From assembly GCF_003986975.1 (NCBI RefSeq), contig NZ_PIPO01000001.1, positions 62,001 to 126,000 of the forward strand: a stretch of 64,000 nt of DNA, in the 5' to 3' direction. Position 1 is the first letter of the stretch; the number at the start of each line of letters is the position of its first letter. The notes under the pieces were generated by a model. The model searched no databases. It saw only the letters and a program-made list of their open reading frames with translations, and was not told where the DNA came from. Of this stretch, positions 9,522-44,811 are shown piece after piece. This DNA is from Aliidiomarina soli (lineage in GTDB: Bacteria > Pseudomonadota > Gammaproteobacteria > Enterobacterales > Alteromonadaceae). A program made the position numbers and the translations under genes.

Positions 9522-11381
9522 ATGCTCGATAGGATTCGTGAAGGTTCCAAGGGACCCGTCGCTAAAATTATCCTTTTCCTGATTATCCTTACCTTTGCCC
9601 TGACCGGGGTGAGTGGCTATTTGGGTGGAAGTGCCGACGACCATGTGGCCGAGGTGAATGGCGAAAAGATTTCACGTACGGATTTTGACCGTGCGTATCA
9701 GAATGAACGTGCTCAGATGGAAGAAGAACTTGGCGATTTTGTGGAAACGCTGTTCGCCGACGAAGCTTATATGCGCGAGTTCCGTCAGGGTGTGCTTGAA
9801 CGTTTGATCGAAGAGCGTCTGGCGACTCAGTTTGCAAGTGAGCAGGGTTTTCGCCCTGGTCCACAGCAGATCCGTAATGCTATCCGCAACATGTCGGATT
9901 TTCAGATTAATGGTCAGTTCAACAATGACCGCTATGTAGCGTTGCTGACCAATGCTGGTTTTACGCCTGAGCAATTTCGCGATTACATGGTGCGCGAACT
10001 TGGCCGCACGACCTTCCTGCAAGGCGCGTTGATGTCCGAATTCATGCTCCCGAACGAGGCAGAAGCGTATCAGCGCCTTCAGAATCAACGTCGTAGCGGT
10101 GAGTACATCCGCGTACCCGCACAGAGCTACACCGATGTTGTGAGCGTTAGCGAAGATGAAATCGAAGCCTTTTATGCCGAGAACGAAGCGCGTTTTGAAA
10201 CTGACGAGCGAGTTCGCGTTGACTATATTGTGCTCGAGTTTAACGACATGCTTGAGTCGGTCACGATTGATGATGCTCAGGCACGAGACTTCTATGAGCA
10301 GAATCCTGGCAATTTCCGAACGCCTGAACGTCGCGAGATTGCGCATATTCTGGTCGAAGGTAATGACGCCGATGCGCGTAGCCGGATTGAAGACATTGCC
10401 AGTCGCTTAGAGGCAGGTGAAGATTTTGCCGAGCTGGCAGCTGAGTATTCGGATGATACCTTTAGTGGACAGGATGGCGGACTGTTAGGACGCCTGGAAC
10501 GCGGTATGATCGACCCCGATATCGAAGATGCAGGTTTTGCCCTGGACAATGAGGGTGATGTATCTGATATCGTTGAATCAGAGTTTGGTTTTCATTTGGT
10601 TAAATTGACCTCATTACGCCCAACTCAGCTTGACCCCTATGAAGAAGTCGCTGAAACCATTAAAGAAAATTTACGTCAGCAGGAAGCTGAGCAGCAGTAC
10701 TTTACGCTGCAACAGACCCTATCACGAGTCAGCTTTGAAGCTCCTGAGAGCTTGCAGCCAGCCGCAGAAGAAACAGGCCTGGACATCCAGCGCAGCGAAT
10801 GGATGGATCGTGAGGGCGTGAATGAATTTGCCGATCAGCGTTTACTAAATGCGATTTTCGATTCCGACGTGTTGCGCGACAACCTCAACAGTGAACTGGT
10901 TGAAGTCGATGAACGCAGCTACGTAGTACGTGTGAACGAGTATGAACCTGCGAGTCTGACGCCGTTGGATGACGTGCGCAGTGACATCGAACAAGCTCTG
11001 GTGATGCGTAAAGCGCGTGACGAAGCCCGTCGGGCAGCGAATGAGTTGCTGGCCCAATACCGTGCTAACGAACTGCCTGAGGGTGTTGAGGCTGAAAGCT
11101 TTAGCGACGTTTCGCGCAACGACGCAGAGTTACCAGCCGGCGTGGTTAGCCAGTTATTCCGGTTACCAGCGCCCTCTGACGATGCGGTTTCAGCAGACAT
11201 CGCTGAGTTACGCGGTGGCGACTTAGCCATTGTCGCGCTGACTGACGTCATCGAAGGTGAAGTCAGTGACAATGGTGCGAGTGAACTGCGTCAGCGTTTT
11301 GAAAACCGTTACGCAGACGCTGCTTACCGTGCAATTATGGAAGCCTTGAAAGAAGACGCGAGTATTACCCGTAATCTTTAG
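9522..11381 (+). CDS. ppiD: PpiD, inner-membrane-anchored periplasmic chaperone
   Basis: Protein of 619 residues, close to the usual ~620. One N-terminal transmembrane helix (~15-34, IILFLIILTFALTGVSGYL) anchors a large periplasmic part. A SurA-type N-terminal chaperone domain follows (~35-190), then a single parvulin (PpiC) domain at ~268-362 (RREIAHILVE to FGFHLVKL), then a long C-terminal region. PpiD works near the SecYEG translocon on newly exported proteins; its parvulin domain is usually catalytically weak in this family. It has its own terminators on both sides. The location downstream of lon-hupB is conserved in gammaproteobacteria. Confidence 0.95.
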   Translation: MLDRIREGSKGPVAKIILFLIILTFALTGVSGYLGGSADDHVAEVNGEKISRTDFDRAYQNERAQMEEELGDFVETLFADEAYMREFRQGVLERLIEERLATQFASEQGFRPGPQQIRNAIRNMSDFQINGQFNNDRYVALLTNAGFTPEQFRDYMVRELGRTTFLQGALMSEFMLPNEAEAYQRLQNQRRSGEYIRVPAQSYTDVVSVSEDEIEAFYAENEARFETDERVRVDYIVLEFNDMLESVTIDDAQARDFYEQNPGNFRTPERREIAHILVEGNDADARSRIEDIASRLEAGEDFAELAAEYSDDTFSGQDGGLLGRLERGMIDPDIEDAGFALDNEGDVSDIVESEFGFHLVKLTSLRPTQLDPYEEVAETIKENLRQQEAEQQYFTLQQTLSRVSFEAPESLQPAAEETGLDIQRSEWMDREGVNEFADQRLLNAIFDSDVLRDNLNSELVEVDERSYVVRVNEYEPASLTPLDDVRSDIEQALVMRKARDEARRAANELLAQYRANELPEGVEAESFSDVSRNDAELPAGVVSQLFRLPAPSDDAVSADIAELRGGDLAIVALTDVIEGEVSDNGASELRQRFENRYADAAYRAIMEALKEDASITRNL

Positions 11382-11405
11382 TACTTAGTTTCTTCAGCAA
11401 TAAAT

Positions 11406-11440
11406 AAAAAAAGCTCGTGTCTTATGACACGAGCTTTTTT
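11406..11440. terminator. Bidirectional terminator between ppiD and batD
   Basis: Stem GCTCGTGTC/GACACGAGC with a TTAT loop, flanked by a seven-A run on the left and a six-T run on the right. The symmetry suits the two convergent genes. Confidence 0.92.
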
Positions 11441-11463
11441 GTTTCCCTTGACTCCATCGTCTG

Positions 11464-13224
11464 CTATCGCCCGGTCGGATAAAGTGAGGGAAGGCGGTGG
11501 TTATCAGTTTGCTGTTTGTTGCGCCGGTGTAGCAGCTGAATGCTTTGCCATAGCGCATCACCCTGCTGCCACTGGCTTTGTGGCCGGTAGAGGGCCTCTT
11601 GCAAGGCGTTCAACTGGGCGGTTAGTGGCGTACTGGCGAAATAGTTGCTGACCTCATCGAGTGTTGCACAGTGACGCTCCGTGGTGCTGTTGACCCAGGC
11701 GAGTAGTGCCTGGCGTGCGGCCTGAGGCTGATTGGCACGGCAAGCAACTTTCAGTTGCTGCAGGGGCTTGCGGCTTGCAGCCGGAACCTTGTCACTGGCT
11801 TTCTGAGCCGACGGTGATGAAGGCTGACGATGTCGAGTACGCCAGTAGAACCAGGCAAAGATGAGCAGAGTCAGCAGCCATAGAATCAATAGTACGACAC
11901 TGCTAATTTGCCATATAGCGTCTGCGCTAGTGCGGTCCGCATCTGGGCTGCTGACATCGGTAGAGTGCTCTGCTGCATTGTCAGTTGCACTACCAGTTGT
12001 AGAATCGGTTGCCGCGGGATCTTCAGTGGAGGAACCGTCGGCGGGCTGAGCTGAGGGAGAGGGCATTCCACCTGCCGGGGCGTGCACGGTAATTTCCCGA
12101 CTTTCAATGCGCGCGGTGCGCACTTGCTCGTTGTCGACATCCCACCAGCTAACTTCGACCGCTGGCAATTCAAAGGTGCCAGCCTGTGACGGTAAAATCA
12201 CCCCACGGAAGGTCGCCTGAGCGATACGTTCGCCATCGCGACTGTAGCTTTCCCGTTCGGTTCGCTCAGCGTAGTAACGCAGCCCTGTCGGATAGTCGGT
12301 GCTGATGTCGGGCAACTGCTCGTCGCGTACCCCTTGGGCTGTTAGCGTGATATGACGCGTTATGGGTTCACCAACGATGAAGCGCTGCTGGTCATTAAGC
12401 TCGTCATTCAGTACCACTTGTTTACTGGGTAACCAGCGACCATCGAAGCCGTCAACCTGCGGCTGCACATTGATTTCTATATCGGGCGCCAATGCAGTCA
12501 CACTTTGTGGACGGCTAAACGAGGCAAAGCTACGTTCGCTACTGTCGCGAATTTGTCCGTCAAAGCGGCTACCACCGATGGTAATCGCACCACTACGGCG
12601 GGGGGTAATGAAATAGGTTCGTTCAATTACCCGGTAGCGTGTGCCATCGATTAACTGCTGAGTTTCTTCGTCATTACCACTTTGCTGAATATCGGCGTGT
12701 TCGATTTCCGGCGGGCTTATTGAACCGCTTTCGAGTACCTGTGCCAGGTGCAAACGAACGGTGTAACGGACTTGCTGCTGAATATAAGGATTGTCATCGT
12801 CGATGCGGGCGGTGACAAACACCGGGCCTCGCTCGTTCTCGCTCTCGCTGGCTTCAATGACCTCGAGCTGAATCGGTGAGGTGCGTTGGCCGTCTATATC
12901 GAATGCGGGGATCCGATAGCTGCCCGGGCGTCTGGCGACTAAGGTGACTTGCCAGCGTGTTTGCCGGCTCATTTGGCCCTGGATAAGTCGTGTCGAACGG
13001 TCAACTGAGGTGGCGCCGACGACGAAGTCACGCAGCAAGGTCTCATTGCGAAATGCGTTGCGTGGTAAATCATCGCTCGCGGTGATGGTCAGGGTGAATG
13101 ACTCATTAACAATGACCGGATTTTTATCTACCTCAGCGTTGACGGTGAGCGCAAATGCAGAGCCGGAATGCAGCAGGGCGATCGCGAGCAGGGTTAGACT
13201 TAACCAGTATTTAGCGTGACTCAC
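11464..13224 (-). CDS. BatD family protein
   Basis: Protein of 586 residues with a cleavable-type signal (SLTLLAIALLHSGSAFA, ~9-25). A long periplasmic beta-rich region of the BatD (oxygen-tolerance) family covers ~27-390. A Ser/Thr/Asp-rich low-complexity linker follows (~395-425), then one transmembrane helix (~432-455) and a cytoplasmic tail. It is the last gene of the MoxR-Bat operon and overlaps the preceding gene by four bases. The Bat operon was named for aerotolerance in Bacteroides; in proteobacteria its role is generally tied to envelope stress or MoxR-dependent maturation, so the precise function is uncertain. Confidence 0.85.
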   Translation of the reverse strand: MSHAKYWLSLTLLAIALLHSGSAFALTVNAEVDKNPVIVNESFTLTITASDDLPRNAFRNETLLRDFVVGATSVDRSTRLIQGQMSRQTRWQVTLVARRPGSYRIPAFDIDGQRTSPIQLEVIEASESENERGPVFVTARIDDDNPYIQQQVRYTVRLHLAQVLESGSISPPEIEHADIQQSGNDEETQQLIDGTRYRVIERTYFITPRRSGAITIGGSRFDGQIRDSSERSFASFSRPQSVTALAPDIEINVQPQVDGFDGRWLPSKQVVLNDELNDQQRFIVGEPITRHITLTAQGVRDEQLPDISTDYPTGLRYYAERTERESYSRDGERIAQATFRGVILPSQAGTFELPAVEVSWWDVDNEQVRTARIESREITVHAPAGGMPSPSAQPADGSSTEDPAATDSTTGSATDNAAEHSTDVSSPDADRTSADAIWQISSVVLLILWLLTLLIFAWFYWRTRHRQPSSPSAQKASDKVPAASRKPLQQLKVACRANQPQAARQALLAWVNSTTERHCATLDEVSNYFASTPLTAQLNALQEALYRPQSQWQQGDALWQSIQLLHRRNKQQTDNHRLPSLYPTGR

Positions 13225-43018: not shown

Positions 43019-43491
43019 ATCAGATCCCAATGACTGTGGACGGCGCGGAAGCGCTGCGCACTGAATTAAGACGTTTAAAACATGAGGACCGCCCACGCAT
43101 TATTCAGGCGATAGCGGATGCCCGTGAGCACGGTGACTTAAAAGAGAATGCTGAATACCATGCTGCACGTGAACAGCAAGGGTTTTGTGAAGGACGGATT
43201 CAGGAAATTGAAGCCAAACTGTCCAATGCTCAGATCATCGATGTGAAGAAAATGCCAAATACCGGCAAGATCGTATTCGGCGTTACGGTGACACTCTACA
43301 ACACCAGCACTGATAAAGAAGTGCGCTATAAAATAGTCGGTGACGATGAAGCAGATATTAAAAATAATCTGATTTCGGTCAACTCACCGCTGGCGCGCGC
43401 GATGATAGGTAAACAGGCTGACGACACCGCGGTGGTGACAACGCCCAGTGGTGAAGTAGAGTACGAAGTGGTTGCTGTTGAGTACCTGTAG
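43015..43491 (+). CDS. greA: Transcription elongation factor GreA
   Basis: Protein of 158 residues. The N-terminal coiled coil (~1-75), whose tip bears acidic residues (DLKENAEY, ~42-50), enters the RNA polymerase secondary channel and triggers cleavage of backtracked RNA. The C-terminal FKBP-like domain follows (~80-158). The start overlaps the carB stop (ATGA), so greA is the third gene of the carAB operon here. A bidirectional terminator follows. Confidence 0.97.
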
Positions 43492-43510
43492 ACAATCATT
43501 GTAACCAAGT

Positions 43511-43541
43511 AAAAAACCCGCATATTGATGCGGGTTTTTTT
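43511..43541. terminator. Bidirectional terminator between greA and the Ner-like gene
   Basis: Stem CCCGCAT/ATGCGGG (43517-43523 with 43528-43534), ATTG loop, A6 on the left and T7 on the right, between two convergent genes. Confidence 0.93.
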
Positions 43542-43544
43542 GTT

Positions 43545-43820
43545 TTAGTCTTGCGCGAGTTTTGCTTTGAGTTCGGCACGCTTCGCCGCCCGTTGGTCAA
43601 CGGACGGGTCAGTAACACCATGATAGGCGGGGATATCCGGGAATACCGTCTCTACAGGGATGCCGAGTGCTTTAGCAATAGCATGCGCCACCAGTGCCGA
43701 GCGAGCCTTGCGTGAAACCACCTTGGATACCAGAGACGGGCTCTTGCCAATGACTTCAGCGAGTAGACTGAAGTCATAACCTTTGTCCGCAAGTCCCTTT
43801 TTTATTTGATCTTTTTGCAT
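43545..43820 (-). CDS. Ner-like (phage Mu type) helix-turn-helix regulator
   Basis: A 91-residue protein whose first ~65 residues match the Ner/Nlp DNA-binding pattern: IKKGLADKGYDFSLLAEVIG, then SPSLVSKVVSRKAR, an IAKALGIP helix, and VFPDIPAY, comparable with the IWPSRY ending of Mu Ner. The rest is a basic helical tail. Mu Ner represses early genes by competing with the CI-type repressor. Here it faces a CI-like gene across ~79 bases with palindromic sites. No Shine-Dalgarno is seen before the ATG. No other phage genes are near, so it looks domesticated. It could instead be a small host Xre-type regulator. Confidence 0.75.
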   Translation of the reverse strand: MQKDQIKKGLADKGYDFSLLAEVIGKSPSLVSKVVSRKARSALVAHAIAKALGIPVETVFPDIPAYHGVTDPSVDQRAAKRAELKAKLAQD

Positions 43821-43822
43821 TT

Positions 43823-43866
43823 ATGTAATTACATATGAGTTCAAAGTGAGTTCACAAATGAATTCA
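43823..43866. promoter_or_regulatory. Operator-like palindrome array between the Ner-like and CI-like genes
   Basis: A 12-bp perfect palindrome ATGTAATTACAT (43823-43834) is followed by three near-identical sites TGAGTTCA (43836-43843), TGAGTTCA (43847-43854) and TGAATTCA (43859-43866), spaced 11 and 12 bases apart, about one helical turn. The array lies in the shared promoter region. A TATAAA (43873-43878) could be the -10 for the CI-like gene, and TTGTGA with TATGTA on the minus strand could serve the Ner-like gene. Confidence 0.6.
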
Positions 43867-43899
43867 CTCGAATATAAAATAATGTTCAAACGAAAACTT

Positions 43900-44430
43900 A
43901 TGACAAATAAAACACAAGCCCCCAGTAAAAGCAAGGTTGTCGAGCCGACACTGGACGAATACATGGAGCGTTTAAGCCGTTTGTCAGGTGAGAGCAAACC
44001 CGCAGCTATTCTTCGTTGGATGGGGGTGAGTGCGTCCAGTTACTCAAACTGGAAACGGCGGGGCACTATCCCGTATAAAACGCTGGTCAATGTGTTAATC
44101 GAACGGCGTATTTCGCTGAACTGGTTTTTTGCCCCCTATGCCAAGCTTGAAGTGCCGGTGATCAGGGATGCAACGCTACAGGAAGGTACTCAGACGTATC
44201 TGCAGCGGCAGCAGCTGGAAAAAGGCTCAGAACGCGAACAGGTGATTAAGGCGTACAGTGATTGTCGGGCTATTCTTCAGCGTAATAATGCGCAGCCGAG
44301 TGAAAACAATATGCGCCTGATGATCGACTTGTATCTTGCTGTCGGTGAACGAGTGGTGCAAAAAGAAATGGTACTGGAACAACTGGCGCAGAGCTTATCG
44401 ACCATTGACAATAACGCGGATGACGCCTGA
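43900..44430 (+). CDS. CI-type phage repressor-like regulator without peptidase domain
   Basis: About 176 residues from the ATG at 43900; in-frame starts at 43846 (GTG), 43858 and 43882 also exist, but the first two lie inside the operator array and none has a clear ribosome site. Residues ~18-80 (ORF from 43900) match the CI repressor N-terminal helix-turn-helix: ILRWMGVSASSYSNWKRRG then IPYKTLVNVLIERRISLNWFF. The rest is predicted helical. There is no S24 (LexA-like) Ser-Lys peptidase region, so RecA-triggered self-cleavage is not expected. It is transcribed away from the Ner-like gene and lies between greA and yhbY. Confidence 0.72.
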   Translation: MTNKTQAPSKSKVVEPTLDEYMERLSRLSGESKPAAILRWMGVSASSYSNWKRRGTIPYKTLVNVLIERRISLNWFFAPYAKLEVPVIRDATLQEGTQTYLQRQQLEKGSEREQVIKAYSDCRAILQRNNAQPSENNMRLMIDLYLAVGERVVQKEMVLEQLAQSLSTIDNNADDA

Positions 44431-44483
44431 TGGGTGCGCGGTAGAGCAGACTATGGGTGTAACGAAGAGATCGTAGCGAAGAA

Positions 44484-44507
44484 GCCCCAGACCTGAATCG
44501 GCCGGGG
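44484..44507 (-). terminator. Possible terminator of yhbY
   Basis: GCCCC/GGGGC outer stem with partly paired interior in the 84-base gap between the CI-like gene and yhbY. On the minus strand it is followed by TTCTTC, a weak T-tract, so termination is uncertain. Confidence 0.4.
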
Positions 44508-44514
44508 CAACAGA

Positions 44515-44811
44515 CTAACCGCGTGGAAGTTTAATGACAGGCTCTTCTGCCGGGCGATAGAGGACCAGCGTCTTACCTATGGTCTGCACAAATGCAGCCT
44601 CAGTTTCACGACAAATTGCTTCAGCAACTGCGTTACGGGTCTCACGGTCATCGGCAGGTACTTTAACCTTGATCAGTTCATGATGCGCTAACGCACCGTC
44701 AATTTCAGCCACCACACCTTCGGTGAGGCCATTCGCACCCATCAATACCACTGGCTTCAATGGGTGGGCTAACCCCTTCAAATACTGTTTTTGCTTGTTG
44801 GATAAGTTCAT
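44515..44811 (-). CDS. yhbY: Ribosome assembly RNA-binding protein YhbY
   Basis: A 98-residue CRM-domain protein that associates with pre-50S ribosomal particles. It begins MNLSNKQKQYLKGLAH, then LKPVVLMGANGLTEGVVAEI with the GxxG-type RNA-binding loop (about residues 24-27), and ends with the beta strand VQTIGKTLVLYRP. It is divergent from rlmE, the same arrangement as in E. coli. In E. coli greA is its direct neighbour; here two phage-type regulators lie in between. Confidence 0.94.
   Translation of the reverse strand: MNLSNKQKQYLKGLAHPLKPVVLMGANGLTEGVVAEIDGALAHHELIKVKVPADDRETRNAVAEAICRETEAAFVQTIGKTLVLYRPAEEPVIKLPRG

Follow-up and report, generated by a model that had tools for sequence, protein, structure and literature searches.

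Regulators that phages leave on bacterial chromosomes are often short-lived, and a pair of them standing among core genes with no virus beside it raises the question of where the pair came from and what the bacterium does with it. Such a pair lies between greA and yhbY of Aliidiomarina soli (genome G000), in a stretch of 64,000 nucleotides that was analysed as a whole and is called the window here. An earlier note on the window had described two small divergent regulators at this point, one resembling Mu Ner and one the N-terminal domain of CI repressors, and had proposed a domesticated two-repressor switch kept without a phage. Both reading frames were found between greA and yhbY (Table 1). 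These two genes are neighbours and convergent in E. coli K-12, in agreement with the adjacency given in the note, so the module sits in a convergent gap. Pfam assignments confirm that core genes flank it on both sides: carA, carB and greA on one, and yhbY, rlmE, ftsH, folP and glmM on the other. Transposase A/B genes were not found downstream of ner, where core genes flank the pair instead, and the Mu-transposase C domain is absent from G000. Rfam at gathering scores gave no match in 43400-44600.

Table 1. Genes and candidate regulatory features of the greA-yhbY locus in the window, and CI-type site clusters in relatives
Feature	Position	Strand	Basis or description
Candidate terminator (stem-loop) lying between the stop codons of greA and ner	43511..43540		A-run, stem (13 pairs), T tail; consensus scan only
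ner-like gene	43545..43820	-	91 aa; HTH_35 / phrog_769
Palindrome TATGTAATTACATA just upstream of ner start	43822..43835		sequence
Candidate operator: TGARTTCA three times as direct repeats, at spacings of 11 and 12 bp	43836..43866		sequence, relatives
Promoter-like TTCACA-18-TAAAAT for CI-like gene	43851..43880	+	overlaps repeats; consensus match only, 10/12
Promoter-like TTGTCA-16-CATTAT for ner	43879..43906	-	consensus match only, 9/12
TTCAAACGAA, one mismatch from the YTCANNTGAR inverted repeat of relatives	43885..43894		sequence
CI-like gene	43900..44430	+	176 aa from conserved ATG; HTH and C-terminal helices; peptidase domain not found
CI-type site clusters at exopolysaccharide (YjbH/YjbF) and capsule-type genes of three Pseudidiomarina	L190:5326-5497; L193:5387-5456; L194:5628-6266

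The Ner-like protein matches Pfam HTH_35 at 26.8 bits, just above the cut-off of 25, and phrog_769 ('transcriptional repressor') at 5.3e-12. The CI-like protein matches PF07022 (Phage_CI_repr) at 26.2 bits against a cut-off of 22, over its N-terminal part only, and the HMM searches placed neither protein in an unrelated family. The likeness to the N-terminal domain of CI repressors was thereby confirmed. That to Ner stands at the level of the HTH_35 family and does not extend to Mu Ner itself, which, like E. coli SfsB, went unreported by a Ner profile of 15 locus copies (E<=10, filters off). The Mu c repressor was likewise unreported by the CI profile; the two Mu proteins lie beyond the reach of the locus profiles, and the 91-aa protein is Ner by position, an HTH protein in the ner position. 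Set against its orthologues, the CI-like protein probably begins at ATG 43900 (MTNKTQ...); the alternative start, GTG 43846, falls within the direct repeats. A whole-protein Pfam scan found no second domain in the CI-like protein, and a C-terminal S24 peptidase domain was listed by neither Pfam nor NCBIfam. The AlphaFold2 model of this protein has a confident HTH at residues about 18-77 (pLDDT near 90) and a short, helical C-terminal half that is less certain (model mean pLDDT 76.5, pTM 0.41). The top solved fold in Foldseek was 2fjr_A of bacteriophage 186, which we take to be the CI repressor of that phage (E 0.11, at a probability of 0.99), and in BFVD a repressor annotated as phage CI matched at 4.4e-3; neither PDB nor BFVD gave a match at E<=0.001.

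The survey covered 62 genomes in the GTDB groupings of 17 Aliidiomarina, 26 Pseudidiomarina and 19 Idiomarina. The CI-like gene was found in 59 of them (16 Aliidiomarina, 24 Pseudidiomarina and all 19 Idiomarina) and lies between greA and yhbY in 58. In G277 (L070:523-1332 and 1721-2254) the CI gene adjoins yhbY, with other genes, not greA, on its other side of the contig; a 269-aa ORF, by eye presumably YebC-like, stands there. The Ner-like gene accompanies CI in 16 Aliidiomarina, 23 Pseudidiomarina and no Idiomarina, and in the window, as across these 39 of 62 genomes, the two genes diverge over a shared intergenic region. No ner was found in any of the 19 Idiomarina or in G287, though CI remains in all of them. 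An empty search in Idiomarina shows nothing by itself; gap lengths back it in 18 of the 19, where at most about 170 bp separate greA from the likely CI starts, less than the 276-bp ner gene and thus no room for it. Three genomes (G002, G265 and G368) have neither gene and a greA-yhbY gap of 65-74 bp, and because these empty sites are nested in the species tree they are probably losses. With core flanks and conservation across three genera, the locus is not a prophage remnant confined to one strain; the two-repressor pair of the note is present in 39 genomes and is not the part conserved throughout, CI being kept without ner in Idiomarina and G287. Titles and abstract openings of published work yielded no recognised description of the greA-yhbY locus.

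Some features of individual copies may be recorded here. The CI of A. sedimenti is 98% identical. The CI stop codon overlaps the end of the convergent yhbY by 4-26 bp in, for example, L071, L073 and L095, so antisense effects are possible. Solo paralogues of ner also occur (two in G002 and one each in G001, G003 and G033; 10 neighbouring proteins were scanned), with additional ner paralogues in G108, G140, G238 and G253. That of G003 (L126:9027-9305) lies ~1.4 kb from a 608-aa ORF (10698-12524) with reverse transcriptase and trypsin matches, possibly a defence gene. The Ner alignment holds 15 locus-type rows together with solo rows, 20 in all, and the A1/A2 family alignments omit the near-identical G010 copy, 15 of the 16 Aliidiomarina CI copies being used.

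Descent of the locus was followed on a species tree of GreA, RlmE and YhbY (62 rows, midpoint root), on which CI presence needs two changes and ner presence five. The CI tree, of 59 rows and four phage relatives, keeps the genera apart at one change per genus (support 90 for Aliidiomarina, 92 for Pseudidiomarina and 55 for Idiomarina) and has 35 of 56 splits in common with the species tree. Within genera, distances on the two trees correlate at r 0.625, against a permutation maximum of 0.262. The finer branching of the CI tree is uncertain because of long branches and a program warning of false joins; by the median ratio CI evolves about 9.5 times faster than its neighbours. CI has been inherited mainly vertically, at one site. 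By a counting method dN/dS is 0.02-0.16 for CI (11 of 18 close pairs had finite dS and 7 were saturated) and 0.01-0.20 for ner (11 of 12 pairs); some of the dS values, being above 1, are rough. Both genes are under purifying selection and look functional, and this, with vertical inheritance at greA-yhbY, agrees with the proposal of domesticated phage-type regulators.

The origin of the pair was sought among more distant CI relatives. In 395 genomes of the wider GTDB family the CI profile matched 72, the 59 above and 13 others, none of the latter better than 2.2e-13, and in 295 genomes of the order the best match besides G000 was at 1.9e-13. That order-level search gave 28 matches besides G000, with G033 already included. 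Thirteen loci outside the three genera were fetched, 10 from the wider-family matches plus G547, G646 and G647; the wider-family matches G083, G111 and G164 were left unfetched. A homologous divergent pair is present in five of the 13 (G033, G158, G161, G263 and G646), and in the first four of these a Mu-type transposase lies beyond ner; the G646 pair gave no match to the transposases of the other four loci. G305 has ner and a transposase, its CI, on the same strand, lying about 3 kb off, and the remaining seven loci have no ner at E<=1e-3. At the four transposase-bearing loci the CI proteins match the CI profile with E of 5.5e-18 to 3e-10 and the ner-position proteins match the Ner profile with E of 2.2e-17 to 6e-7, and MuA/MuB-type genes are present. 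By PHROGs, the genes of this kind in G033 and G161 are a transposase and a transposition protein, and the G161 locus also has a match to a terminase small subunit. Among 58 records matching the G161 transposase, 51 are Pseudomonas phages, and identity is 31.8-42.9% in the 20 of the 58 that were listed. Because homologous divergent pairs stand beside Mu-type transposases, the locus is read here as a domesticated Mu-type immunity region, and it is very likely, from homology and gene order, that the ancestor of the three genera domesticated it at greA-yhbY. The phage CI relatives are 152-177 aa in all four cases, and the two scanned by Pfam carry PF07022 only, so the missing peptidase domain looks ancestral. 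The earlier observation that the CI-like protein has no LexA-type peptidase stands, as an apparently inherited trait and not a sign of domestication. In all four Mu-like loci the second gene downstream of CI is an ORF of 887-975 aa (L113:6328-9255, L114:8848-11553, L117:9098-11761 and L120:8939-11626).

Searches of phage and plasmid collections were mostly empty. Neither protein has a relative in the seven Mu-transposase-domain loci fetched from Aliidiomarina, and nothing matched when 50,697 phage records were searched by tblastn with the two window proteins. Scans of viral contigs (IMG/VR) with the A1/A2 family alignments returned no confirmed relatives, a weak negative given the back-translated patterns used; the phage CI of G161 picked out a single contig, L185, at 100% identity, and that of G158 none. 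The plasmid collection gave one partial HTH match.

The intergenic region carries candidate sites of two kinds (Table 1). Nowhere else in the 64 kb window do three TGARTTCA repeats fall within 30 bp, and the candidate ner promoter would put these direct repeats in the initial transcribed region of ner. The adjoining palindrome TATGTAATTACATA is similar in several Aliidiomarina copies and was not seen in Pseudidiomarina. An exact YTCANNTGAR site is absent from the window copy, which has the near-match alone. In the 115 nt that precede ner, counted across the 39 genomes with the pair, GARTTCA-type sites number 58 in 28 regions (shuffles average 2.8) and symmetrical YTCANNTGAR sites 36 in 29 regions (shuffles 0.74), both kinds being kept in most of these genomes, and the spacing of GAGTTCA-like units peaks at 11 bp (27 against 0.2) and 12 bp (14 against 0.1); the shuffles overstate significance because the motifs were picked by eye in the same regions as were counted, and sequences so related lack independence. 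Two GTCANNTGAC-like sites lie exactly 30 bp apart in 21 of 23 Pseudidiomarina copies (31 bp in G108, a single site in G188), one of the pair usually covering the CI start codon. The phage loci of G158 and G161, which were not used for motif finding, have CTCAATTGAG just before CI, of the same class as YTCANNTGAR; the motif was not found in the divergent pairs of G033, G263 and G646. The 20 CI-only genomes (19 Idiomarina and G287) have 0 sites of either kind, with the start estimated from the protein end. Since CI persists in genomes that lack ner and sites of either kind, it probably acts on something besides ner. In six Idiomarina copies (L156, L158, L160, L162, L163 and L164) the CI recognition-helix region differs from that of the other genera, for example NDYANWKRSNKLPF in L158, and the difference coincides with the absent operators.

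Sites away from the locus were scanned for in the 17 Aliidiomarina and 26 Pseudidiomarina genomes. Within G000, the genome of the window, matches to the strict tandem pattern lie at the locus only, as 2 overlapping ones (reversed control 1), and a 22-mer composite of the TATGTAATTACATA palindrome and the first repeat, with up to 3 mismatches, has a single match, again at the locus; with these two strict patterns, no sites were found elsewhere in G000. The tandem pattern is present in five of the 17 Aliidiomarina, at the locus in G000, G010 and G016 and once elsewhere in G002 and G005. The strict paired inverted repeat is present in seven of the 26 Pseudidiomarina (reversed-pattern control 0/26), at the locus in only four (G168, G238, G253 and G386) and away from it in five (G065, G168, G307, G345 and G386). 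The largest cluster, in G065 (L192:5902-6559; G065:C14, about 77.9-78.6 kb), is an array of 23 GTCANNTGAC-like palindromes, 19 of them exact, spaced mostly by 30-31 bp with two shorter gaps near its end. TCA and TGA are invariant in 23/23 and the two central bases free, an invariance due in part to the choice of sites with at most one mismatch. The array extends as far as the start of an ORF that has matches to methyltransferase and HNH (PADLOC mad2 at 2.2e-12), with NERD and type IV restriction-like genes nearby. In G307 five sites, three exact, lie in the first 65 codons of the called YjbH ORF of a YjbH/YjbF exopolysaccharide operon; they stand ahead of the YjbH Pfam domain and so probably before the true start. 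In G386 and G168 the sites lie between an epimerase gene and a Polysacc_synt_2 gene, the one case in which clusters away from the locus adjoin the same genes in different species. The clusters in G065, G307 and G386/G168 are, by their sequence, candidate targets of the resident CI; the G345 pair, within a kinase gene, may be chance. When viral sequences were scanned for CI-type sites repeated three times with a 30-bp period, 8 stretches came up, all of them 15-bp tandem repeats and judged unrelated; viral contigs L195-L202 contain such 15-bp repeats, with GTCANNTGAC inside them, and seem unrelated.

Taken as a whole, the account favoured here, which we consider moderately probable, is that the immunity-control region of a Mu-like phage, a repressor divergent from a ner-position gene, was captured between the convergent greA and yhbY at a time before the ancestor shared by the three genera Aliidiomarina, Pseudidiomarina and Idiomarina, and that the rest of the phage was lost while selection retained the control region. 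The CI-like and Ner-like proteins would bind the DNA between their genes, with the 11-12-bp TGARTTCA repeats and the YTCANNTGAR inverted repeats near the CI start as candidate sites, and each would regulate its own and the other's transcription; autoregulation through the shared intergenic region is likely. The selected role of CI is probably repression in trans of targets other than ner, as its retention without ner and without the old sites suggests; these could be incoming related phages, or host genes at which CI-type sites are clustered. The bistable switch over host genes that was first proposed would be a plausible possibility. Against the favoured account, three genomes live without the module.

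As to which targets CI would serve, host genes are favoured over phage immunity. That CI has been rewired to exopolysaccharide, capsule and other host genes through clusters of phage-type sites is quite possible, short of probable: in its favour are the G307, G386/G168 and G065 clusters, the last a 23-site array before a methyltransferase gene, with a 30-bp spacing equal to the one between the two CI-start sites in 21 of 23 Pseudidiomarina pairs, and the retention of CI alone by all 19 Idiomarina. Against this, only five of the 26 Pseudidiomarina genomes have such clusters, at differing genes, the G345 pair is inside a coding region, and the units at the CI start of G065 resemble its array no more closely than do the CI-start units of other species. 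Still more tentatively, one may picture a phage repressor turned transcription factor of this marine group, which kept its operator code of YTCANNTGAR inverted repeats in phased arrays while host loci such as exopolysaccharide/capsule operons gained clusters of such sites, and Ner, by then optional, was dropped in Idiomarina. Resident superinfection immunity, in which CI represses incoming Mu-like phages with similar operators and ner is a relic of the circuit, would fit the CTCAATTGAG sites before CI in the Mu-like loci of G158 and G161, which match the host YTCANNTGAR class, as well as the rapid evolution of CI and its retention without ner. It is nonetheless unlikely, for whole-gene comparisons show no sign of diversifying selection, the seven fetched Mu-transposase-domain loci of Aliidiomarina have no relative of either protein, and the phage records, like IMG/VR with the limited patterns used, gave no match.

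Two further explanations dispense with a trans role or with the phage. A self-regulating relic that has no other role and persists by slow decay would accord with the strict tandem pattern of G000 being confined to the locus, but it is largely contradicted by the purifying selection on the two genes and by CI being present in 59 of the 62 genomes; had the insert between the convergent genes been neutral, it could have been deleted, as it was in three genomes, and we regard this explanation as very improbable. Least probable is that the Ner-like gene is an orthologue of SfsB (Nlp) that moved within the greA region and is unrelated to phage. E. coli sfsB does lie about 6 kb from greA, and SfsB is of similar length (92 aa), yet the locus profile lends such orthology no support, leaving SfsB unreported at E<=10 while reporting the four Mu-like ner-position proteins, and the partner gene is a phage CI relative.

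Under the favoured account of a captured Mu-like control region, the interest of the locus lies in its persistence. A module kept without its virus at the same site in most sequenced members suggests a use of the bacteria's own, and here three genera retain a phage-free Mu-type immunity region at a single site, two of them with likely operator arrays. The pair present, CI alone and the empty site amount to a natural dissection of the locus, which opens to direct test the benefit that a bacterium draws from a phage switch once the phage is gone, and the way in which a repressor outlives its partner and its operators.

Among known systems, the PF07022 CI repressors, such as that of phage 186, have their HTH in common with the locus CI, whose C-terminal half is short, helical and without a further Pfam domain. 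The locus CI also differs from the LexA/lambda-CI type in having no C-terminal S24 peptidase domain, the seat of RecA-triggered cleavage. Mu Ner and E. coli SfsB are HTH_35 proteins, a family in which the Ner-like protein falls just above the Pfam cut-off, and the locus ner adjoins a repressor as that of Mu does; neither is reported by the locus profile. DicA/DicC of the E. coli Qin element form a CI/Cro-type pair in a cryptic prophage, and such pairs resemble the locus as divergent repressors on a chromosome; unlike them, the locus pair has no prophage around it and occupies one site across three genera. The closest likeness is to a Mu-like immunity region, in which a repressor diverges from ner, followed by transposase A and B. 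Sequence homology to Mu c or Mu Ner themselves is not detectable, no transposase or MuB gene stands beside the locus pair, the locus is inherited mainly vertically at one site, and a whole genus (Idiomarina) lacks ner. The arrangement of a repressor divergent from a small HTH gene is nevertheless that of Mu, and both proteins are homologous to those of Mu-like loci in related genera. The Mu repressor uses tandem repeats of about 11 bp, and the locus, too, has tandem 11-12-bp repeats between its genes.
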